Shown: in pieces, positions 4,344 through 58,646 of the stretch
Layout: the number at the start of each line of letters is the position of its first letter
Position numbering within the stretch: position 1 is the first letter of the stretch
Source of the DNA: Acidovorax sp. A79
Lineage (GTDB): Bacteria > Pseudomonadota > Gammaproteobacteria > Burkholderiales > Burkholderiaceae_C
Reading direction: 5' to 3'
NCBI RefSeq assembly: GCF_041154505.1
Contig: NZ_AP028672.1
Location: 5,496,501-5,560,500 of the forward strand
DNA: 64,000 nucleotides
Notes under the pieces: generated by a model
The model's database searches: none
Told to the model about the DNA's origin: nothing
Seen by the model: the letters and a program-made list of their open reading frames with translations, nothing else
Position numbers and translations under genes: made by a program

Positions 4344-4409
4344 ACAATCGCAATGGCCCTGGCGGCTCGTGGTCGGTGCGGGCCCGGGTCACGCCGCTAT
4401 GATCCGGCC

Positions 4410-5210
4410 ATGATTTCGCGCTTGCCCGGCCTCTCCCTGCCCGAACGCGTGTGGAATACCGCGCGGCGCTGGGCGGTCGCGTGGTGGCGCATCCTGTACC
4501 TGGGCGCCGTCGTGCTCGTGCTGGTGCTGTCTCCGTCCAGTTACGGCAAGGGCACGCGCAGGGCGCTGGCGCGCCATCTGTACCTCGATACGGCACCCGT
4601 GCTGCTGGGGTTCACGGTGCTGGCGGCGCTGATCAGCCTGGTGCTGACGCGCATCGTCGTGGTCACGGCGCTCAGCTATGGCCTTTCGCGCTATGCGCTG
4701 GAGATGGTGATCCGCGTGCTGGTGCTCGAGCTGATCCCGCTCACGGCCGCGCTGTTCGTGGCGATGCGCTGCACCATTCCCAACGGCACGCAGATCACCC
4801 GCCTGCGGCAGAACGGCCGGTTCGACGCGCTGCGCGCCCAGGGCTCGGACCCGGTGCGCATCGAGCTTCTGCCGCGGGTGATCGCGGGCGTATTCGCGTG
4901 CATCACGCTCGCCGCGCTCAGCTGCGTGGTGGCACTGGTGCTGGCCTATCTGGGGGTGTATGGTTTCAACTTGGCGGGGGCGCCCAGCTACACGCGCATG
5001 TTCGGCCAGGTGTTCACGCCCAGCGTGACGATGGTGTTCGTGCTCAAGACGGTGTTCTTCAGCCTGGCCGTGGCGCTCATTCCCATGGCTGCGGGCCTGT
5101 ACGACACTGGCGACCGCACCCAGCCCGATTCGGAGCTGGGGGGCCTGGCCCGCATGTTCGCCGTCCTGCTGCTGATCGAGGTCGCCTCGCTCATGGGCAA
5201 CTACTACTGA
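4410..5210 (+). CDS. MlaE-family ABC permease
   Basis: A 266-residue inner-membrane protein with about five or six hydrophobic helices, resembling MlaE permeases of lipid (MCE) transport systems. Family-like features are the Glu/Leu-rich central helix (MVIRVLVLELIPLTAALFVAMRC) and a loop with RFDALRAQGSDPVRIELLPRVIAG, which resembles the coupling region that meets the ATPase. The start at 4410 was chosen because it opens the conserved region; an upstream ATG at 4323 lies in repeat DNA. It is followed after 57 bases by an MCE-domain gene. No MlaF-type ATPase gene lies in the cluster, which is unusual. Role in phospholipid or hydrophobic substrate transport is inferred from family. Confidence 0.8.
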   Translation: MISRLPGLSLPERVWNTARRWAVAWWRILYLGAVVLVLVLSPSSYGKGTRRALARHLYLDTAPVLLGFTVLAALISLVLTRIVVVTALSYGLSRYALEMVIRVLVLELIPLTAALFVAMRCTIPNGTQITRLRQNGRFDALRAQGSDPVRIELLPRVIAGVFACITLAALSCVVALVLAYLGVYGFNLAGAPSYTRMFGQVFTPSVTMVFVLKTVFFSLAVALIPMAAGLYDTGDRTQPDSELGGLARMFAVLLLIEVASLMGNYY

Positions 5211-5267
5211 CTCCTGCCTGCCGACATCCGCCAGACCCTTACATCCCGCGACCCACGCCCGGCATCC

Positions 5268-6305
5268 ATGAACGACGAGAACCCCCACCACCGCCCCACA
5301 CCGCCCCCCGGGCCAGCGCCAGCGCCTGCGGCCGCCGACGTGCCGCCGGTGGAAACCTTGCGCCCGGTAGCCTACCTGGAGCTCAAGGCGGCGGCGCTGC
5401 TGCTGTTCACGCTGGCGCTCATCGTGGGATCGGGCCTGTACCTGCTGTACGCGCGCGGTGCGTTCGAGCCCACGCAGACCCTGGTGCTGACCGCCGACGA
5501 CTCCGAAGGCGTGGTGGTGGGCATGGACATGACCTTCTCCGGTTTCCCCATTGGCCGCGTGCGCCGCATCGAACTGGCCGAAACCGGCAACGCCCGCATC
5601 ATCGTGGACGTGCCGCGCAAGGACGCCCACTGGCTGCGCGAATCCAGCGTGTTCACACTGGTGCGGGGCATCGTGGGGGGCACCAACATCCGCGCCTACA
5701 CGGGCATGCTGAACGACAAGCTCCTGCCCGACGGCTCCGTGCGCCCCGTACTGCGCGGTGATGCCACCGCCGAGATCCCGCAGCTCATGGCCTCGGCCCG
5801 CGAACTGCTGTCCAACCTCAATGCCCTCACCGCGCAGGACGCGGCCCTGGGCGGCAGCCTGGCCAACGTGCGGGCGCTGACCGACCGCATCAACGGCCCG
5901 GGGGGCGTGCTGGGCGTGCTGATGGGCAACGAGGCCGACGCGAAGAAGATCGTGGCCACGCTGGAACGCACCAACGCACTGCTCGCGCGCCTGGATGGCA
6001 TGGCGGCACGTGCCGACAAACAGGTGTTTGGGGCCGATGGCAGCAAGGACGCGCTGGTCCCCGAAGTGCGGGCCACGGTGGCCCAGCTGGGGGGCCTGCT
6101 GGCCGACACCCGCGCGAGCCTGCAGAAGGTGGACGCGGTGCTGGTGGAGGCGCAGGCCATCGGTGCCAATGCGCGGGAAGCCACGACCGACCTGGGCGCA
6201 TTGCGCGCCGAGGTGGAAAGCAACCTGCGCAAGGTGGAGAGCCTGGTCAATGAGATCAACCGCAAATGGCCTTTCGCGCGGGACACGGAGCTCAAGCTGC
6301 CATGA
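5268..6305 (+). CDS. MlaD/MCE-domain substrate-binding protein
   Basis: A 345-residue protein with a Pro/Ala-rich cytoplasmic N-terminus (1-33), one membrane helix (about 44-62) and a periplasmic MCE domain (about 70-150). MCE features are a SEGVVVGMDMTFSGFPIGRV segment and a VRGIVGGTNIRAYTG segment. Residues about 170-335 form a long helical tail with repeated ALTAR/LDGMA-like heptads, as in MCE proteins that form hexameric tubes. Such proteins carry lipids between membranes with an MlaE permease. It lies between the permease gene and a lipoprotein gene, whose start overlaps its stop (ATGA), so the three form one operon. Confidence 0.85.
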   Translation: MNDENPHHRPTPPPGPAPAPAAADVPPVETLRPVAYLELKAAALLLFTLALIVGSGLYLLYARGAFEPTQTLVLTADDSEGVVVGMDMTFSGFPIGRVRRIELAETGNARIIVDVPRKDAHWLRESSVFTLVRGIVGGTNIRAYTGMLNDKLLPDGSVRPVLRGDATAEIPQLMASARELLSNLNALTAQDAALGGSLANVRALTDRINGPGGVLGVLMGNEADAKKIVATLERTNALLARLDGMAARADKQVFGADGSKDALVPEVRATVAQLGGLLADTRASLQKVDAVLVEAQAIGANAREATTDLGALRAEVESNLRKVESLVNEINRKWPFARDTELKLP

Positions 6306-50125: not shown

Positions 50126-50484
50126 GGTGAATCTCCCTCGGGGTTTTGTGATGGTGGTGGCCCGCAGGCCAACCTGGCGGGGCCACGCACGGGTTGCGGG
50201 CCTGCCGGTGGCGTGCCGCGCGGCGCTGCCCGGCCGCGCGGCGGGCTGGCCGTCGAGTATGCATGAAGCTCCCGCGCGCCAAGGCAAGCGGCGGGTGCTG
50301 GAACCGTGGAGGCGCGCGGTGCCCACCGCATCCATCCAACGGCCGTGCTGCTGAAGGACGGTGGTTGACATGGCGTCAAGTGCCAGGGCCCGGACGATGG
50401 ACAACGCCGAGAGGGACGGTGCCCGCGAAGCCGGTAACAATTCGTGTACTTCCACCGCGAACCCACTCTCCCTACCGCCGCACC
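50126..50484. other. GC-rich intergenic region before the six-gene block
   Basis: No supported gene. A TTGACA hexamer lies at 50365-50370 but no good -10 follows at 16-18 bases. The promoter of the block at 50485-58646 should lie here or further downstream. Confidence 0.4.
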
Positions 50485-51405
50485 ATGTCGCAAAACGCAC
50501 ACACCCTGCACCTGTTCTTCGAAGACGCGATCAAGCTCAAGACCGGCCAGCTGGTCTACCAGTACCTGGCCGCCGGCAATACCGAACAGGCGCAGCGCTG
50601 GGCCCAGAAACTGGGGGGCGCGGATCTGGCGGCGCTGTGGGACGAACAGTGGTTCAACCAGGAGGTCCTGGCCCAACGCACCCACCTGCTGCTGCGCTTT
50701 GACACCGGCACGCACGACGACCTTCCCTTGCGGGCGCTCGAAACACTGTTTGCCCACGGCCTGCAGTCGGCGGTGCTGGAGGTGTTCTACGACCAGGTGG
50801 GCGAAACCGAGCGCATGCACTTCGACAAGGGCCAGTGGGTCTCGCGCAAGGCGTTCTTCGAGGCCAACCCGCAGTGGCGCGCGGTGGTGGAGCCCGTGGA
50901 CGAACCCGTGGCTGCCGGTGAGGCTGGCGAAGGGCCCGACGAGGAAGATGCCCACGCCCACTCCAAGGACCCGGGCAAGCCGGTCTCAGTGTCCAAGCTG
51001 CGCAAGCAGGAGGCCGAGCGCAGGAAGAAGGGCGAGGAAGCCGCGCAGGCCTTCATCGACATGGCCAAGGAAATGCACAAGACCGGCACCTCTCCCGTTC
51101 AGGGACTGATCGCGGTGCTGCTGCTGCGCGCCGGCTTCAAGGGGCTGCTGCAGGCCATCGCGTTCACGGTGGTCACCGTGCTGCTGTTCAAGGGCCTGTG
51201 GCTCTGGCTGGGGCTGGGCCTGGTGCTGGCCATCGTGCTGCCGCTGTACTACATGCTGAGCGAGTACAAGGACCTCCACGGGGATGGCGACGAGGACGGC
51301 GACCCGGACAAAGACGCCGACGACGACAGCGAAGATGGCGGCGAGAGCGAGGGCCGTGGTGGCGAAGCGCCGCAGGGCGGCAACGCCAGCAAGTCCAGCC
51401 ATTGA
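50485..51405 (+). CDS. Hypothetical membrane protein with acidic tail
   Basis: A 306-residue protein. Residues 1-135 form a soluble domain (LHLFFEDAIKLKTGQLVYQY, NTEQAQRWAQKLGGADLAAL), with a TPR-like feel and a FYDQVGETERMHFD segment. An acidic, then basic linker (about 137-190) leads to two membrane helices (about 208-255: LIAVLLLRAGFKGLLQAIAF, WLWLGLGLVLAIVLPLYYML). The end (about 265-306) is a strongly acidic Asp/Glu/Gly tail. The upstream ribosome site is weak. First gene of a six-gene run. No family recognised. Confidence 0.65.
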   Translation: MSQNAHTLHLFFEDAIKLKTGQLVYQYLAAGNTEQAQRWAQKLGGADLAALWDEQWFNQEVLAQRTHLLLRFDTGTHDDLPLRALETLFAHGLQSAVLEVFYDQVGETERMHFDKGQWVSRKAFFEANPQWRAVVEPVDEPVAAGEAGEGPDEEDAHAHSKDPGKPVSVSKLRKQEAERRKKGEEAAQAFIDMAKEMHKTGTSPVQGLIAVLLLRAGFKGLLQAIAFTVVTVLLFKGLWLWLGLGLVLAIVLPLYYMLSEYKDLHGDGDEDGDPDKDADDDSEDGGESEGRGGEAPQGGNASKSSH

Positions 51406-51425: not shown

Positions 51426-51905
51426 ATGCTGACACAGATCGAATGGTGGGGCGGGCTGATCTTCGTGCTGGGCGCGATCACCTACAAGCTCGTGATGGGC
51501 GCGCTGGAAAAGAAGGACGATGGCATCCATTGGTACCGGCTTCAGATGCACGCCTTCTTCCTGCTGCCCGCCGTGGTGCTGGCCGCGTATTTCTATCCGC
51601 TGGACAGCCCGTGGCTGCGGTACGGCTACCTGGGCGTGCTGGGTGTCTCGCTGCTGGTGGTGCTGGTGATGCTGGTGCAGGAGATCACGGGCGACGCACC
51701 CGGGGACGATGCGGAGAAGGCCGCCACGCTCGACACAGTCAAGGGGGAGGGGGGAGAGGAAAAGAAAAAGCAGACCGAAAACGAGGAGGATGAAACCGGC
51801 TGGCTGACGGCGGTGCTGGGGGCCCTGGTGCTCTACAGCCCGGTGCTCGCGGCTTGTGGCCTGGGTTGCTACAAGGCCTGGCCCCTGGTGCAGGCGCTCT
51901 GGTAG
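51426..51905 (+). CDS. Hypothetical four-helix membrane protein
   Basis: A 159-residue protein with about four membrane helices (about 6-25, 40-58, 65-86 and 128-155) and a highly charged cytoplasmic loop (about 88-125, GEEKKKQTENEEDETG). GAGGGAG lies about 12 bases before the ATG. It follows the previous gene by 20 bases, so the two are co-transcribed. No family recognised; it may form a membrane complex with its neighbour. Confidence 0.65.
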   Translation: MLTQIEWWGGLIFVLGAITYKLVMGALEKKDDGIHWYRLQMHAFFLLPAVVLAAYFYPLDSPWLRYGYLGVLGVSLLVVLVMLVQEITGDAPGDDAEKAATLDTVKGEGGEEKKKQTENEEDETGWLTAVLGALVLYSPVLAACGLGCYKAWPLVQALW

Positions 51906-52059: not shown

Positions 52060-53298
52060 ATGGCCCACGATTCCTTTCCGGAGCTTCTCTCGCTCTACAT
52101 GCGGCGCATTCGCGCCAGCGCCTCCGGCGTGGCCACCGAGATCGGCCTGAGCCGCGAGGCCGTGAACAACTGGCGCAACGGCCTGTCGGCGCCCAACCCC
52201 CGCTCGCGAGAAAAACTGGTGGCCTGCACCCGCTACCTGCGCCTGACGGAAACCGAGGCCAACCGCCTGCTCAGCGCCGCCGGCTTCGAGCCCGAGTTTC
52301 CGCTGCAGGCCGAGTCGGCGGGCGCGGCGCAGCCCTTCGCTGCCTTCCAGGACCGGCTGTTTGCCCAGCTGGCGCAGGCCGTGCCGTATCCCATCTCGCT
52401 GCTGCTGTCGCCCGCCCACTGGGGCCAGCCGCCGTTCAGGCAAGAGCTGCTGCAGCGCGCCAAGGCGCAGTACGGCGAAGGCGCGGTGCTGCACATCCAG
52501 CCGCCCTACAGCGTGAGCACCGTGCCGGCCGAGTACTTCGCCGCCATTGGCCGCCAGTGCGGGCTTGGCGATGTGGCGTCCGACTACGAATTCGAATCCG
52601 CGCTGGAGCGCCGCCTGCTGGCGGGCGAGCGCCTGTTCTGCCTGGTCAGCCGTTTCGAGCAGGGCACCCCCGAACTGCGCGAAACCCTGGCGGGCATCCT
52701 GCGCAGCCTGAGCGAGATGCACAGCGGACGGCTGCACCTGCTGCTGTGCGGCGGCGAGGCGCTGGCCGACCTCAAATACCGCAGCGGCGACCTGTCGCTG
52801 CTCAACATCGCGCAGGTCAACCACTGGCCCGATCCGTCGCTGGAAGACCTCACCCAGCTGGCGCGCCACCGCTGGCCCGAGCAGGCCTGGCCCCAGCCGG
52901 TGCTGGCGGCCCTGCAGGAGATCAGCGGTGGACACCCCGCGCTGTTCGAGGAAGGCCTGCAGTGGCTGGTGGACCAGGGAGCGGGCGGCGGCCTGCAGGG
53001 CGCGCAGGCAGACCGCGCCGCGCTGCGCACCCACCTGGCCAGCAGCCCGCGCCTGTGGCAGACCCTGCTGCCCCTCGCGCAGGCACCGGCCACCCGGCAA
53101 CGGCTGGCGCAGCTGCTGCAGGCCGATGAGCTGGGCCGCGCGCGCCCCTACCTGCAGGACGACGAGCTGCGCCGCCTGTTCTGGGGCAACCTCATCCATG
53201 TGCGCGGCACGGGCGAGGCCGCGCGGCTGCACTGGCGCAGCCCCACCATCCGCGACGCGGGCCTCATGGTGCTGGACTCGTGTTCGTCGGCCGCATGA
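52060..53298 (+). CDS. XRE-type HTH protein with degenerate STAND/AAA-like domain
   Basis: A 412-residue protein. Residues about 8-75 form an XRE-like helix-turn-helix (GVATEIGLSREAVNNWRNGL, then NPRSREKLVACTRYL). Residues about 95-310 follow the layout of a STAND/AAA ATPase but lack its catalytic residues: the P-loop position reads LLLSPAHWGQPPFRQEL (no Gly-Lys-Ser/Thr) and the Walker B position reads RLFCLVSRFEQ (no Asp-Glu). LHLLLCGGEALADL fits sensor 1 and ISGGHPALFEEGLQWL fits the lid helix of such ATPases. Residues 310-412 form a possible winged helix. Its stop overlaps the next gene (ATGA). Probably a DNA-binding regulator coupled to the ATPase partner downstream. Confidence 0.7.
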   Translation: MAHDSFPELLSLYMRRIRASASGVATEIGLSREAVNNWRNGLSAPNPRSREKLVACTRYLRLTETEANRLLSAAGFEPEFPLQAESAGAAQPFAAFQDRLFAQLAQAVPYPISLLLSPAHWGQPPFRQELLQRAKAQYGEGAVLHIQPPYSVSTVPAEYFAAIGRQCGLGDVASDYEFESALERRLLAGERLFCLVSRFEQGTPELRETLAGILRSLSEMHSGRLHLLLCGGEALADLKYRSGDLSLLNIAQVNHWPDPSLEDLTQLARHRWPEQAWPQPVLAALQEISGGHPALFEEGLQWLVDQGAGGGLQGAQADRAALRTHLASSPRLWQTLLPLAQAPATRQRLAQLLQADELGRARPYLQDDELRRLFWGNLIHVRGTGEAARLHWRSPTIRDAGLMVLDSCSSAA

Positions 53299-55481
53299 GC
53301 CCGCTGCTGTCCAGGTCCGTGGTCCGCGCGGTGGTGATCGCGGCCATCACGCTGTTCGTGGGCAGCGCGCTGCTCACGCCCAAGCTCAACCCGGCCACGC
53401 GCGGCTCCGCGCTGGGGGCCGAGAACGCGGGCATCATCTGGGGCGAGCTGGTGCAGTGGCGCGTGGCGATGATGCAGGCGCACAACGAGCTGGACGCCTG
53501 GCCCGAGGACATCCGCACACATGCGCCGCGCATCGGCAACCCGCAGCTGCGCGTCACGTCGCCCCGGCCCTACGTGCTGCAGGCCGACATCGCCCACAAC
53601 CCCGAACTGGGGAAGCTCGCGGGCACCCAGGTGGTGGTGGAGCTCAAGCCCGGCACGACCACCTGGAGCTGCCGTCCCGGGCGCCCGCCCATTCCCCTGG
53701 GCTATCTGCCCATCAACTGCCTGGAGGGGCAGGCCGACGACTTCACGCCCGTGCCGCCGTCCGAGCGCGACCCGTTCGAAGGCCTGCGCAAGCTCATCTA
53801 CTGGTGCGCCGCCATCTTCGCCGTGGGCGCGGTGGTCTGGGTCGCGCGCCACCCCCTGCTCGGGCCTTCGCAGCTGCAGCCCGCGCGCCTTCGCCGCACC
53901 CCGCTCGCGCGGCTGCCCCGTCTGGACCGGCTGCTGGGCTGGACCGGGCGGCGGGAGTCCACGCTGCTCGCGGCCGACATCCGCCCGGTGGACTGGGGCC
54001 GCGCGGTGCTGTGCGCGCAGCCCGGCGCGGCAGAGGGTGCGGGGGGCCTCGTGCGCGCGATGGCCGAGCGGGTTTCCGCCCGCAGCCAGCCCAGCACCGA
54101 CTGGGCGCTGCCGGGGCTGGTGTTCGAGTGGCAGTTCCCGCCGGACCTGCCCGTGTCGCTGGACCGCTGCCTGGTCTTCGTGCCCACTCCCGGCGTGGAC
54201 GAGGCCGCCGTGCTGCGCCAGCTGCGCGCCGCGCAGACCGGCAGCGACGTGCTGCTGATCCTGAGCGGGCACAGCGTGGACGCGCCGATGCCCCTGCTGC
54301 AGGCCCATGCCGATGACCGCGCCAACCTGCACGTGATGGTGGACAGCGCCAGCCAGACCGAATGGCTGGTGGGCGGCGAGGCCCTGCAGGTGCTGCTGCG
54401 CCTGCTGGCCGCGCAGCTGCGCATCACCCGCATCTCGCCATACCAGACGCGCGGTGGCGTGACGCGGGAGGGCTCCTTCTTCGGCCGCGCCCAGCTGCTG
54501 GCCCGCGTGGTCAACCGCGAACCCGCCAACTACCTGGTGGTGGGCGGGCGCCAGCTGGGCAAGAGCAGCCTGCTCAAGGCCGTGCAGCGCCGCCTGCAGG
54601 GCCACCCGCACACCGTGTGCCACTACGTCTCGCTGCGCGACCACCGCCTGGCGCCGCGCATGGCGCTGCAGTTCGGCCTGCCGGCCGACACGCCGCTCGA
54701 AGCCATCGTGGACCACCTGCAGGCGCAGTACGCGGGCAAGCGCCTGTATTTGCTGATCGACGAAGCCGACCTCTTTTTCCGCGACGAGTCGAACAGCGGC
54801 TACGCCCAGTTGTCCACGCTGCGCGCGCTCAGCGAGGAGGGGCGCTGCTGGTTCATGCTGGCGGGCTTCTGGGACCTGTACGCCACCGCCGTGCTCGACT
54901 ACCAAAGCCCCCTGCGCAACTTTGGCGAGGTGCTGGCCATCGGCGGGCTGGAGCGCGCCGCCTGCCGCGAGCTGGCCACCGAGCCGCTGCGCCGCCTGCG
55001 CCTGGGTTTTGGCAGCGACACGCTGGTGGAAAAGCTCGTGGACGCCAGCGGCCAGCGCGCCAACCTCGTGGCCATCCTGTGCCAGGAATGCCTGGAGGCC
55101 CTGCAACCCGGCGAGCGCGCCATCGAGGCGCGCCACCTCGCGCAGGCCCTGGCCTCGCAGCCCGTGCAGGACGCGCTGGCCGGCTGGGGGCGCCTGAGCC
55201 AGGACGAGGCCGCCTGCCGCCTGGACCGCGTGGTGGTCTACCACACGGCCCAGGCCGGGCAGACCAGCCTGGTGGCCCTGGCCCAGCTGCTGCAAGGCCA
55301 CGGCATCACGGCCGACGCGCAGGCGCTGCGCCAGTCGCTGGCACGCCTGCAGCTGGCCTATGTGCTGCGCAAGCAGGATGCCGCGTACCGCTTTGCCATC
55401 CCGCTGCTGAAAGACCAGTTCGAGCCCACGGAGGTGGAGCTGTTGCTGCGCCAGGAGCTGGCCGTGCTGGCGCGTGGGTGA
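53295..55481 (+). CDS. Membrane STAND-type ATPase with periplasmic pilin-like domain
   Basis: A 728-residue protein with an unusual layout. TM1 (about 10-28) is followed by a periplasmic region (38-147) that resembles a type IV pilin head: a helix, AWPED at 69-73, beta strands, and a C-terminal WSC(126)..IPLGYLPINC(142) loop like the disulfide D-region of pilins. TM2 spans about 168-186. The cytoplasmic part has an unassigned domain (about 220-375) and a STAND/AAA ATPase: FFGR box at 395-398, Walker A GGRQLGKSS with K423, Walker B LYLLIDEAD with D489/E490. A winged-helix-like end (about 640-728) follows. A GTG start at 53280 is possible, but ATG 53295 overlaps the upstream stop. Confidence 0.75.
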   Translation: MSPLLSRSVVRAVVIAAITLFVGSALLTPKLNPATRGSALGAENAGIIWGELVQWRVAMMQAHNELDAWPEDIRTHAPRIGNPQLRVTSPRPYVLQADIAHNPELGKLAGTQVVVELKPGTTTWSCRPGRPPIPLGYLPINCLEGQADDFTPVPPSERDPFEGLRKLIYWCAAIFAVGAVVWVARHPLLGPSQLQPARLRRTPLARLPRLDRLLGWTGRRESTLLAADIRPVDWGRAVLCAQPGAAEGAGGLVRAMAERVSARSQPSTDWALPGLVFEWQFPPDLPVSLDRCLVFVPTPGVDEAAVLRQLRAAQTGSDVLLILSGHSVDAPMPLLQAHADDRANLHVMVDSASQTEWLVGGEALQVLLRLLAAQLRITRISPYQTRGGVTREGSFFGRAQLLARVVNREPANYLVVGGRQLGKSSLLKAVQRRLQGHPHTVCHYVSLRDHRLAPRMALQFGLPADTPLEAIVDHLQAQYAGKRLYLLIDEADLFFRDESNSGYAQLSTLRALSEEGRCWFMLAGFWDLYATAVLDYQSPLRNFGEVLAIGGLERAACRELATEPLRRLRLGFGSDTLVEKLVDASGQRANLVAILCQECLEALQPGERAIEARHLAQALASQPVQDALAGWGRLSQDEAACRLDRVVVYHTAQAGQTSLVALAQLLQGHGITADAQALRQSLARLQLAYVLRKQDAAYRFAIPLLKDQFEPTEVELLLRQELAVLARG

Positions 55482-55529: not shown

Positions 55530-56990
55530 ATGACCACCAAACTCAAGTGGACCAACCGCCTCTACGGCCCCATCCGTGTGCTGAACCATGCGGACGGCCT
55601 GCATCTGGAAAAATTCACCGACGCCGATCTCGACCAGATCGCGGGCTGTGACGATGTGCTGGAGATCGACCTGCGCAGCAACCGCACCCCGCAGCCGGTG
55701 GACCTGTCGCGCCTGGCGCATATCGCGGGGCTGCGGCGCCTGAGACTGGAGCACGTGCGGTTCAGCAACCTGCAGGCGCTGGGGGCTCTGCCACGCCTGC
55801 AGTCGCTACTCATCGCGCACTGCGACTTCCAGGACTTCGAGGCGTTGAACGGCCTGCAGATCGAAACTCTGTTCCTGTGGAACAACAAGCTCAGGGCCTT
55901 TCCAGCGGGCCTGGATCTGCCGAAGCTGGAAAGCCTGTACCTGTCGCACAACCGCATCGCCGAGGTGGGGTTTGCGGCCAGCTACGCCACGCTCAAGGAA
56001 CTGCACATCAATGGCAACCAGGTGGCCGACCTCTCGCCCCTCGCCGCCTGTACGGCGCTGGAGCGGCTGTGGGCGGACGACAACCGCCTGAGCACCCTGG
56101 CGCCGCTGGCGGGGCGCCGCTTTCAGCGCTTGCATGTGGACAATGCGCTGGCCTGCGAGTGTGAGTCACTGAAGCTGGAGCTGCCCGAGACCCCTTTCGA
56201 GCAAGACGCCGAGAGCGCCGAGTCCTGGCGTGTGGCGCGGCTGATGGAGGCCAAGGACTGGCCGCAGCTGTATGCCATCACCTCGCCAGCGCTGCTGGGC
56301 AGGGCGTTTTCGAATCTGGTTCACGGGCACGCAGATGCCGAGATGATGCGTGGCGCGCTGGAGCATCCCGCGCCGGGCGCTTTCGAGGCCATGGTGGCTC
56401 ACGGACTGAGGCCGCACTACGTGTCCGTGCGGGAGCAGTTGGTGGATGTGGTCAGCGCCCACGGCGAGCGGCTAGTGCTGCCGCTGGCCCGTGCATTTGA
56501 TGCTCTGCTGGCCCAGGGCTACGTGCACGACCCGGAGTTCTACGCTGGTAAGTTCAAGCAAGAGCACTTCACGCTGGCGCGCATCCTGCAGCAGGTGGCC
56601 AGCCCGGTATTTGCCGGCCTGTTCCAGGCCTTCTTCGCACAACGCGAGAGCTTTTCGCAACTCCACCTGGACCTGTACAAATGGCTGCTCGACGTAGTGG
56701 GCAAGACGCAGTCGCCCGCGCTGGTGGAGCCACTCATCGACCTGCTGCGCCTTGAAGAGCGCATCCTGGGTGGCGATGCGGCGTTCATGAAAAAGACCTT
56801 CAAGGCCATTGGGCAGCTGGGCACCCGGGCAGACGCGGCCCTGCTGACCAGCCGATTTGACGTCGCGGCCGAAGCGCGGCCCGATGTGGCCGAGGCCTGC
56901 TTGGCCACCTTGAAAAAGCTCGAAAAGAAAAAGGCCGAACCCGTGGCGGCGCGTGCGGCTGTGCGCTCTTGCGTCTCCTCCCAACCCTGA
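55530..56990 (+). CDS. Leucine-rich-repeat protein
   Basis: A 486-residue soluble protein. Residues about 45-215 contain about seven leucine-rich repeats (LRRLRLEHVRFSNLQAL, LPKLESLYLSHNRIAEV, LKELHINGNQVADLSPL, LERLWADDNRLSTLAPL). Residues about 230-480 are helical, HEAT-like (WRVARLMEAKDWPQLYAITS, GALEHPAPGAFEAMVAHGL, VEPLIDLLRLEERIL). No signal peptide, so it is cytoplasmic. It follows the ATPase gene by 48 bases and precedes the ankyrin gene by 9, so it belongs to the same run. Protein-protein interaction role; partner unknown. Confidence 0.75.
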   Translation: MTTKLKWTNRLYGPIRVLNHADGLHLEKFTDADLDQIAGCDDVLEIDLRSNRTPQPVDLSRLAHIAGLRRLRLEHVRFSNLQALGALPRLQSLLIAHCDFQDFEALNGLQIETLFLWNNKLRAFPAGLDLPKLESLYLSHNRIAEVGFAASYATLKELHINGNQVADLSPLAACTALERLWADDNRLSTLAPLAGRRFQRLHVDNALACECESLKLELPETPFEQDAESAESWRVARLMEAKDWPQLYAITSPALLGRAFSNLVHGHADAEMMRGALEHPAPGAFEAMVAHGLRPHYVSVREQLVDVVSAHGERLVLPLARAFDALLAQGYVHDPEFYAGKFKQEHFTLARILQQVASPVFAGLFQAFFAQRESFSQLHLDLYKWLLDVVGKTQSPALVEPLIDLLRLEERILGGDAAFMKKTFKAIGQLGTRADAALLTSRFDVAAEARPDVAEACLATLKKLEKKKAEPVAARAAVRSCVSSQP

Positions 56991-56999
56991 GGTTTCCTG

Positions 57000-58646
57000 A
57001 TGTCTGAGTCTCGTCTTCACTACACCGTTTATTTCTCATCCCGCGCCCAGGCCGCGGCCTGGGCCGCCGAAGCGCAGGCGACCGCTGATCTGCCGCTGGA
57101 GGAACAGGCCCCCGTGCTGGGCGCCATGCTGGGCCTGGGCGGCGATGCGGGTGCCTCTTTCGAGTTCGCGGGGGCTGCCGAGTTGTGTGCCGAGCTGGCC
57201 ATCCTCGGGCCGTGGAACCTGCTGGCCGCCAACGAGTGGCCACCGGGCCTGATGGAGCGGGGCGCCAAGCTGTTCAGCTGCGAATGGCACAACGGCCCCA
57301 AGGCGGAAGGCCTGTGGTTCAACGGCCCCAAATCCGTCACGCGCAAGCAGTTTGAGGCTGCTGTGCGCAAGTTGGACCCGCTGGAAGAAGTGCACCAGTG
57401 GCTCTCCAAAGAACAATATGGCGAGGTTTTGAACCTGGTGCACCACCATGGCCTGGACCCCAACACGGTGCTGTACCACCGGCCGCTCATCGTGCACTTG
57501 CTCACGCCGCAGGCAGGCAAGGCCAGCGGCGTGTTGCCCACCGACGCCATCATCGCCCTGCTGCAAGCCGGGGCGCGACCCGACCCACTGGCGCTGGTCA
57601 CTCTCATGCCCAGCTTCACCTTGCCCGTGTTTCCGCTGCATTGCGCGGCGTATGCGTTTGACATTGCACTGATGCAGGCGCTGGTGGACGCTGGCGTGGA
57701 TGTGAACGCTGTGGACGACGAGGGGCACACGCCCTTGATGCAACTGGCCGATGCCACACACTATTTGAGCAAGCCAGCCTCCATGGCCGTGCAGGCCGCG
57801 CAATGGCTGCTGGAGCGGGGCGCAGAGGTCAACGCCGTGAGCCAGCACGGGGATTCGGCCCTGGCCGGGGGCGTGCACCAGGCGCTGCGCGATCTTCTGG
57901 TGGCGCACGGTGGCCGGGTGATCTGGCCGCAACACGCGCTGGAGTACGACACCCCGGAGCAGCAACGCAGCGCGATCTGGTACCACGACCATGCGCGCCT
58001 CGATGAACTGCTGGCGCAGGCCCCACCGGACGAGGCCTACCGGCAGCAGTTGCTGAGCAGTGCAGTGGATGGAGGAAATGGCCACGCGCTGGACCGGCTG
58101 TGGCGGCCGCAAGACCATGCGCTGATGTGCATCGGCAAAATCCCACAGCCCCGTTTGCTGGCGGAATCCCTCACGAAGCACGAAGGCACGGACGTGGCCA
58201 CGATGCAATACCTGGTGCAGCGCAGCGCACCCGAGGCATTCCCCACGCGCGACGCCGCCTGGCTGGATGCCGCCAACAGCTGCATGCACGATTTCACCAG
58301 CCGCATCGTGGACCGGCCTGTGGCATTGCTGGAGATGGTGCTGGCGCTCGGCCTGCCCGCCGAGCCACCCGCCGATGCGCAGCACACCCCCCTGGAGTGG
58401 GCCATCCACGGCCTGTCTGAAGCCAAGGTCGCGCTGCTGTTGGCCCACGGTGCCAACCCCAACAGGGCGCTGTACCACGGTGGCAATGCCCTGCATGAGG
58501 CGGTGCTGTACAAGGCGACCGATTGCATCCCATTGCTGTTGCAAGCGGGGGCGGACCGTACCCAGTGCGACCGCCAGGGCCGCACACCGCTGCAACTGGC
58601 CGTGTCCAAGCGCAATAAGACGGCCCAGAAGCTGCTCGCGGCCTGA
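57000..58646 (+). CDS. Ankyrin-repeat protein
   Basis: A 548-residue soluble protein. The N-terminal domain (about 1-130) is of unknown type (YTVYFSSRAQAAAWAAEAQA; CEWHNGPKAEGLWFNGPKSV). Ankyrin repeats are seen at about 210-300 (FPLHCAAYAFDIALMQALVD, AGVDVNAVDDEGHTPLMQLA, WLLERGAEVNAVSQHGDSAL) and 455-545 (TPLEWAIHGLSEAKVALLLA, HGANPNRALYHGGNALHEAV, TPLQLAVSKRNKTAQKLL). No signal peptide. Last gene of the six-gene run. Interaction scaffold of unknown partner. Confidence 0.82.
   Translation: MSESRLHYTVYFSSRAQAAAWAAEAQATADLPLEEQAPVLGAMLGLGGDAGASFEFAGAAELCAELAILGPWNLLAANEWPPGLMERGAKLFSCEWHNGPKAEGLWFNGPKSVTRKQFEAAVRKLDPLEEVHQWLSKEQYGEVLNLVHHHGLDPNTVLYHRPLIVHLLTPQAGKASGVLPTDAIIALLQAGARPDPLALVTLMPSFTLPVFPLHCAAYAFDIALMQALVDAGVDVNAVDDEGHTPLMQLADATHYLSKPASMAVQAAQWLLERGAEVNAVSQHGDSALAGGVHQALRDLLVAHGGRVIWPQHALEYDTPEQQRSAIWYHDHARLDELLAQAPPDEAYRQQLLSSAVDGGNGHALDRLWRPQDHALMCIGKIPQPRLLAESLTKHEGTDVATMQYLVQRSAPEAFPTRDAAWLDAANSCMHDFTSRIVDRPVALLEMVLALGLPAEPPADAQHTPLEWAIHGLSEAKVALLLAHGANPNRALYHGGNALHEAVLYKATDCIPLLLQAGADRTQCDRQGRTPLQLAVSKRNKTAQKLLAA

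Follow-up and report, generated by a model that had tools for sequence, protein, structure and literature searches.

STAND ATPases are known chiefly from immunity and cell death, where they act as sensors in the cytoplasm. In the available passages of Kaur et al., a helix-turn-helix (HTH) domain is read as a sign that some STAND conflict systems respond through transcription (PMC7159879, PMC8195603). A sensor linked to pilins is found in Pseudomonas, where, in the part of the source at hand, PilS/PilR responds to PilA levels in the inner membrane and PilS is a kinase (PMC6058289). The locus described here lies in a stretch of 64,000 nucleotides of Acidovorax sp. A79 (NZ_AP028672.1, positions 5,496,501 to 5,560,500; hereafter the window), part of a genome of 5.87 Mb. 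Directly behind the gene of an HTH protein it encodes a STAND ATPase, which is predicted to cross the inner membrane and to bear a pilin-shaped head on the outside. We put at about one in two the probability that this ATPase is a receptor for an outside signal, likely acting through the HTH partner on its own operon by way of a palindrome. A receptor controlling its own operon fits the way in which the locus divides into steady parts (ATPase core and HTH partner, joined by the palindrome in the pilin-headed group) and exchangeable ones (outside head and downstream genes). The gene and the parts of its product, in window coordinates, are as follows.

53295-55481, forward strand: pilin-headed STAND ATPase (P0001), 728 aa, recognized from the open reading frame, domain, model and motif evidence
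53325-53378, forward strand: first transmembrane (TM) helix, TM1, predicted at residues about 11-28 (helix 7-27 in the model), without a prepilin-peptidase motif
53400-53732, forward strand: pilin-fold head, residues about 36-146, predicted extracytoplasmic, with invariant C126 and C142 (AlphaFold2 model; Pfam profile in relatives)
53778-53849, forward strand: second TM helix, TM2, predicted at residues 162-185 (model, hydropathy)
53862-54419, forward strand: middle domain, residues 190-375, alpha/beta in the secondary structure of the full-length model
54420-55478, forward strand: STAND core, residues 376-728, with nucleotide-binding, helical and winged-helix parts
54543-54569, forward strand: Walker A, GGRQLGKSS, residues 417-425
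54750-54764, forward strand: Walker B, LLIDE, residues 486-490

The order of parts in the translated frame is thus TM1, pilin-like head, TM2, middle domain and STAND ATPase. The start codon at 53295 overlaps the stop codon of the upstream HTH gene (ATGA). FFGR is located at residues 395-398, GGRQLGKS at 417-424 with K423, and LLIDEAD with D489 and E490; the frame, the coordinates and the residues named in a preliminary description of this DNA were all correct when the translation was re-read. Two hydrophobic helices, at about 11-28 and 162-185, were predicted, and a hydropathy scan placed both also in the close relatives from loci L122, L123 and L074. Residues 184-215 carry seven lysines or arginines and one aspartate or glutamate, and the ATPase side is therefore predicted to be cytoplasmic. 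The topology prediction accordingly agreed with the proposed arrangement of TM1, periplasmic region, TM2 and cytoplasmic ATPase, with the head outside and the ATPase inside. A database search scored 7997 candidates and gave 340 relatives at E ≤ 0.001, of which 120 were listed; the alignment of distant relatives gave 255. Motifs were counted in 143 proteins, the window protein among them; P0056 at least, a sequence called partial, has no N-terminus. The closest named relative is Acidovorax sp. sif1233, with 99% identity over the best segment of this protein.

The cytoplasmic part has the features of a STAND core. In the window protein Pfam recognized the AAA part alone (AAA_22, E 3.7e-8), and the same scan gave no kinase domain. 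The core matched STAND ATPases of archaea as well as plant resistosomes and CED-4. The P-loop (GGRQLGK[ST]) was present in 142 of the 143 proteins and Walker B ([ILV]DEAD) in all of them, and the nucleotide-binding domain is followed by helical and winged-helix domains. The relative P0114 matched nSTAND1 above its cut-off (34.1 vs 27.1 bits) and 22 of 50 relatives matched at E ≤ 0.01, P0001 itself giving no match at E ≤ 1. The earlier assignment as a STAND ATPase is supported by the complete core and by the Walker motifs kept in the relatives.

The extracytoplasmic part is predicted to adopt a type IV pilin fold. An AlphaFold2 model of the head had a block predicted local distance difference test score (pLDDT) of 92-98 over residues 31-140, and the 28 best solved-structure rows for this model were all type IV pilins; the best E given by Foldseek was only 0.021. 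Structure prediction with a fold search was what the preliminary description had proposed. PF00114 (Pilin) scored above its curated cut-off in three distant ATPase relatives, and P0001 itself had no PF00114 match at E ≤ 1. Residues W69, P70, G110, C126 and C142 were invariant across 76 aligned relatives. By sequence alone the head profile found no significant solved pilin in the PDB, the first being the pilin 8p3b at E 0.66. Compared with a pilin profile it reached 97.2% and E 3e-11, a match that is partly circular because six of the seven pilin rows came from, or adjoin, hits of the same ATPase profile. The WxC..YLPxxC ending, read earlier as the mark of a pilin D-region, is thus more than a chance likeness, given the five invariant residues, PF00114 in relatives and the model. 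Of the features that define a type IV pilin, the head has the globular fold in the model; a class III signal peptide is missing, and the protein does not end after the globular domain but continues with TM2 and the ATPase.

The prepilin-peptidase motif was found in none of the 143 relatives (first 60 residues searched, at least one sequence being without its N-terminus); the ATPase protein is not a pilin. This bears on the suggestion in the preliminary description that the protein may be a surface decoy for pilus-targeting phage. A decoy would agree with the pilin fold, but without the motif and with a second TM helix the head should not reach the surface, since the two helices are predicted to fix the protein in the inner membrane. 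Within the head, moreover, the D-region is one of the better conserved parts (mean entropy 1.42, against 2.43 for the long helix). Major pilins have a variable D-region. Head divergence also did not track that of the host pilins: with the ATPase distance allowed for, the partial r was -0.08 (permutation p 0.75, n = 12) and, with genome G031 left out, -0.23 (p 0.94), in a test that is weak because one pilin per genome was used. On the predicted topology, the missing motif and this null comparison we rejected the decoy, which is barely credible.

Pilin-like domains were also seen in another protein context. L062 (1444-2538, reverse strand; genome of the window, C1:5313911-5314165) encodes a membrane protein that combines an RDD domain (PF06271, E 1.3e-11) with a pilin-like domain at its C-terminus; its PF00114 score was 22.5 bits in one scan and 19.9 in another, the cut-off being 22. 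Partial pilin matches in open frames of 299-478 aa recur in other genomes of the genus. Because such frames recur, the pilin fold may serve other proteins, too, as a module outside the membrane.

A steady neighbour of the ATPase is the HTH gene, found immediately 5' of it in 40 of 40 homologous loci (in L010 just its end is present).

52060-53298, forward strand: HTH partner, 412 aa, XRE-type HTH followed by an AAA-like body without a P-loop

Its profile matched the HTH structure 2kpj (E 4.7e-6, positions 5-67), and at this profile level the domain has the character of a Cro/C1-type helix-turn-helix. Among single rows at E ≤ 0.01, HTH_31 was matched by 3 of 16 and HTH_3 by 1 of 16, and the window protein alone reached only E 0.024. 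The body gave AAA_35 matches in 3 of the 16 rows, and the P-loop was absent from all 16 checked.

A palindrome precedes the cluster to which both genes belong, together with a second conserved element that was seen by eye in the aligned upstream regions.

50365-50379, forward strand: palindrome TTGACATGGCGTCAA, a candidate operator located 120 bp ahead of up2, found by a pattern search of the loci
50399-50403, forward strand: GGACA, 19 nt past the palindrome
50485-51405, forward strand: up2, 306 aa, hydrophobic in its C-terminal part, first gene of the cluster, with homologues in most Acidovorax loci

The strict form, TTGAC-N5-GTCAA, occurred at 19 exact sites in 41 sequences (the 40 loci and the window) that total 730,662 bp. 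Eighteen of these sit 106-158 bp ahead of the first gene of the cluster, and the nineteenth is found 165 bp ahead of a DUF4132 gene in L036; ten Markov sets gave 0 or 1 site each and the backward pattern none. A looser form gave 38 matches compared with 6-15 in controls, 35 of them, by our own count, at promoters of the cluster or of DUF4132 genes, and was present in 33 of the 41 sequences. As these sequences are related, the counts are not independent. The palindrome is common to Acidovorax, Pseudomonas and, in the loose form, Delftia. In the genome of the window the composite of palindrome and GGACA occurred at one place (C1:5546865-5546903, control 1), at the cluster. A strict pattern occurred there at two places, one being the cluster and the other lying beside a gene that we read as an AsnC/Lrp-type regulator; its control also gave two. 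Among 30 loci from the composite search, up2 is present in 10; 19 of the remaining 20 are without the full palindrome, and L188 has the palindrome without up2. The HTH protein would be expected to bind the candidate operator at 50365-50379.

If the head is the input module, its exchange for other domains such as WD40 or NHL is expected. A profile of the cytoplasmic part alone was matched in 7 of 398 genomes of the phylum and, within another order of the same class, in 23 of 42, with 35 rows that include fragments. The regions studied were 21 of the other order and five more of the phylum search. Eighteen N-terminal parts were scanned (16 from the other order, two from the phylum search); L110 and L112 were outside this set, and L124 starts at a contig end. 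Fifteen of the eighteen have WD40 and three have NHL propellers. In hydropathy scans a hydrophobic helix immediately ahead of the ATPase was seen in most of these relatives, and several begin with one. Of the 21 regions of the other order, 14 carry a homologue of the HTH partner; five of the remaining seven have less than 350 bp 5' of the ATPase, while L104 and L107 have several kb. Since propellers replace the head in relatives, a receptor-like layout is supported; of the sensor proposed in the preliminary description this layout stands, and the phage decoy attached to it falls away. The HTH partner, the palindrome and the exchange of heads had no place in that description.

In three relatives (L105, L108 and L116) the ATPase has a TM helix without a large head, and an HTH gene is nearby. 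Opposite-strand genes of similar look, 375-495 aa long, stand between the HTH gene and these headless ATPases (L105:6881-8032, L108:6970-8457, L116:7160-8287). The headless forms suit the view that the pilin head is a mere anchor or assembly module and that the signal is cytoplasmic, as does the divergence among 20 members of the genus, where the head changes about twice as fast as the cytoplasmic part (means of 0.27 and 0.14). Such a role sits poorly with the five residues invariant in 76 relatives and with a D-region better conserved than the long helix, and we hold it to be decidedly unlikely.

Another possibility is that the input comes from the cell's own pilins: lying in the membrane as a pilin does, the head would sense their pool, pilus activity or pilus-bound phage. 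The predicted fold and pilin-like topology speak for it, as do the PF00114 matches in 44 of 47 genomes of the genus and, within the part of the source available, the PilS/PilR response to inner-membrane PilA (PMC6058289). Head divergence, however, did not follow pilin divergence in the weak test given above, and relatives carry propellers instead. Control of pil genes by the same palindrome was considered and dropped, no site having been seen before a pil gene in the genome of the window with the strict or the composite pattern. We regard this reading of pilins as rather unlikely.

Several observations weigh against the receptor acting through its HTH partner and the palindrome. Eight of the 41 sequences have no loose palindrome. 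Over 47 genomes of the genus the composite site was not enriched, with 37 places (25 genomes) compared with 93 in the backward control, and its specificity therefore rests on position. No up2 was found in L027, L033, L034 and L039 of the 40 loci. Common ancestry of the HTH protein's body and the ATPase was sought and not detected (hhalign E 0.26). L073 has its HTH gene 2.5 kb downstream, beyond a gene on the opposite strand, and in L115 and L117 another gene stands between the HTH gene and the ATPase.

The remaining members of the cluster lie on both sides of the HTH and ATPase genes.

51426-51905, forward strand: up1, 159 aa, hydrophobic, likely a membrane protein, with homologues in most Acidovorax loci and L041
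55530-56990, forward strand: leucine-rich repeat (LRR) protein, 486 aa, variable downstream gene (LRR_4, E 1.4e-19, scanned from an upstream start)
57000-58646, forward strand: ankyrin-repeat protein, 548 aa, variable downstream gene (Ank_2, E 7.1e-17)

Homologues of up2, which had no NCBIfam match at E ≤ 1, are also found 5' in some Delftia and Pseudomonas loci; up1 gave a sub-threshold TctB match alone (E 0.0053). From their order and spacing the genes are predicted to form a single operon. A promoter scan returned none and a terminator scan 5 compared with 3.8 expected, both being uninformative. The downstream genes vary: LRR and ankyrin genes follow in some Acidovorax, a LysR gene comes directly next in L003, L019 and L023, and homologues of the ankyrin gene were found in just L004 and L033 of the 40 loci. 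The LRR and ankyrin genes (55530-58646) are missing from the 99%-identical locus L024, from which it follows that the downstream end of the cluster changes quickly. In three Pseudomonas loci, DUF4132 genes (PF13569, E 1.1e-33 to 2.9e-32) lie directly 3' of the ATPase.

L036, 10283-13933: DUF4132 gene with the strict palindrome ahead
L034, 10257-13952: DUF4132 gene with the loose palindrome ahead
L041, 10167-13826: DUF4132 gene

In L036 the first gene of the Pseudomonas cluster (4362-5321, 319 aa) has a weak TerB-like end (E 0.15, below cut-off) and a strict palindrome 109 bp ahead of it.

This composition also invites comparison with immunity. The ATPase might be an immune or cell-death switch that senses an attack outside the cytoplasm and then sets off its effectors, be these the membrane proteins up2 and up1 or the products of the downstream genes, as the likeness of the core to plant resistosomes and CED-4, the hydrophobic look of up1 and up2 and the variable downstream genes could suggest. 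PADLOC, however, gave the ATPase a weak partial match alone (PDC-S01, E 0.0019, residues 407-491) and no catalogued defence protein over the greater part of its length; neither the HTH nor the LRR protein had a match, and the ankyrin protein matched PDC-M72A and Ankyrin over its repeats. Within the genus, furthermore, the gene occupies mostly one chromosomal place with the same flanks. An immune switch is thus unlikely.

The full-length ATPase was found in 22 of 36 genomes of the genus (that of the window included) and in none of 24 other genomes of the order, with a weak partial match in G001. Another member without the full gene, G002, has a 43-residue match to the end of the ATPase with an internal stop (C570:15906-16037), a remnant and a sign of gene loss. 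Phage records gave no match to the ATPase; seven plasmid records matched 28-35% of the protein, in its AAA part, at 25-32% identity, and none covers most of it.

For the receptor acting on its own operon we propose the following course. The ATPase would span the inner membrane with the pilin-shaped head outside, where a ligand or partner bound by the head may alter the nucleotide state or the assembly of the ATPase. The ATPase would then capture or release the HTH protein through the AAA-like body of the latter. As a consequence, the HTH protein may shift transcription of its own operon, that is of up2, up1 and the exchangeable downstream genes (LRR and ankyrin; DUF4132 in some Pseudomonas). 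The palindrome makes this reading testable with a reporter. More broadly, the loci may represent a transmembrane NLR-like class of receptors, in which a constant STAND ATPase with exchangeable outside heads (pilin, WD40, NHL) signals by direct contact to an HTH protein that is likewise constant and whose AAA body is dead, and the HTH protein switches exchangeable outputs through one palindrome; this wider proposal is tentative, with the odds somewhat against it. In that case the pilin head would join pilin biology to NLR-type signalling. The layout as a membrane receptor, if true, would provide a route from outside the cytoplasm to genes that relies on no kinase and no sigma-factor cascade, and the pilin fold would have a second, unexpected role.

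Among the matches listed, no described counterpart of the layout of pilin head, membrane and STAND ATPase was found in the literature. The type IV pilins (PilA/PilE, PF00114) share with the protein the predicted head fold and the two-cysteine D-region, and differ in lacking a second TM helix and an ATPase after the head and in having the prepilin-peptidase motif. PilS/PilR of Pseudomonas aeruginosa, as far as the available part of the source goes, is likewise a pilin-linked membrane sensor controlling transcription and would be the closest working analogy if the head reads pilins; PilS, however, is a histidine kinase, whereas here a STAND ATPase without a kinase domain takes its place (PMC6058289). 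The systems of Kaur et al. resemble the locus in their STAND ATPases, in partner genes with variable domains and in some TM segments, but the word pilin is absent from both texts, and a STAND protein that spans the membrane, bears its head outside and is paired with a separate HTH protein does not appear in the available passages (PMC7159879, PMC8195603). In contrast to the STAND NTPases at large (nSTAND1, PABY2304 and SSO1545, plant NLR resistosomes, CED-4), the ATPase described here is predicted to span the membrane, its variable head is N-terminal and outside, and it stops at the winged-helix part without C-terminal sensor repeats. STAND sensors are a known kind; as judged from sequence, the exchangeable outside head combined with a steady HTH partner would be the new layout, that of a membrane receptor.

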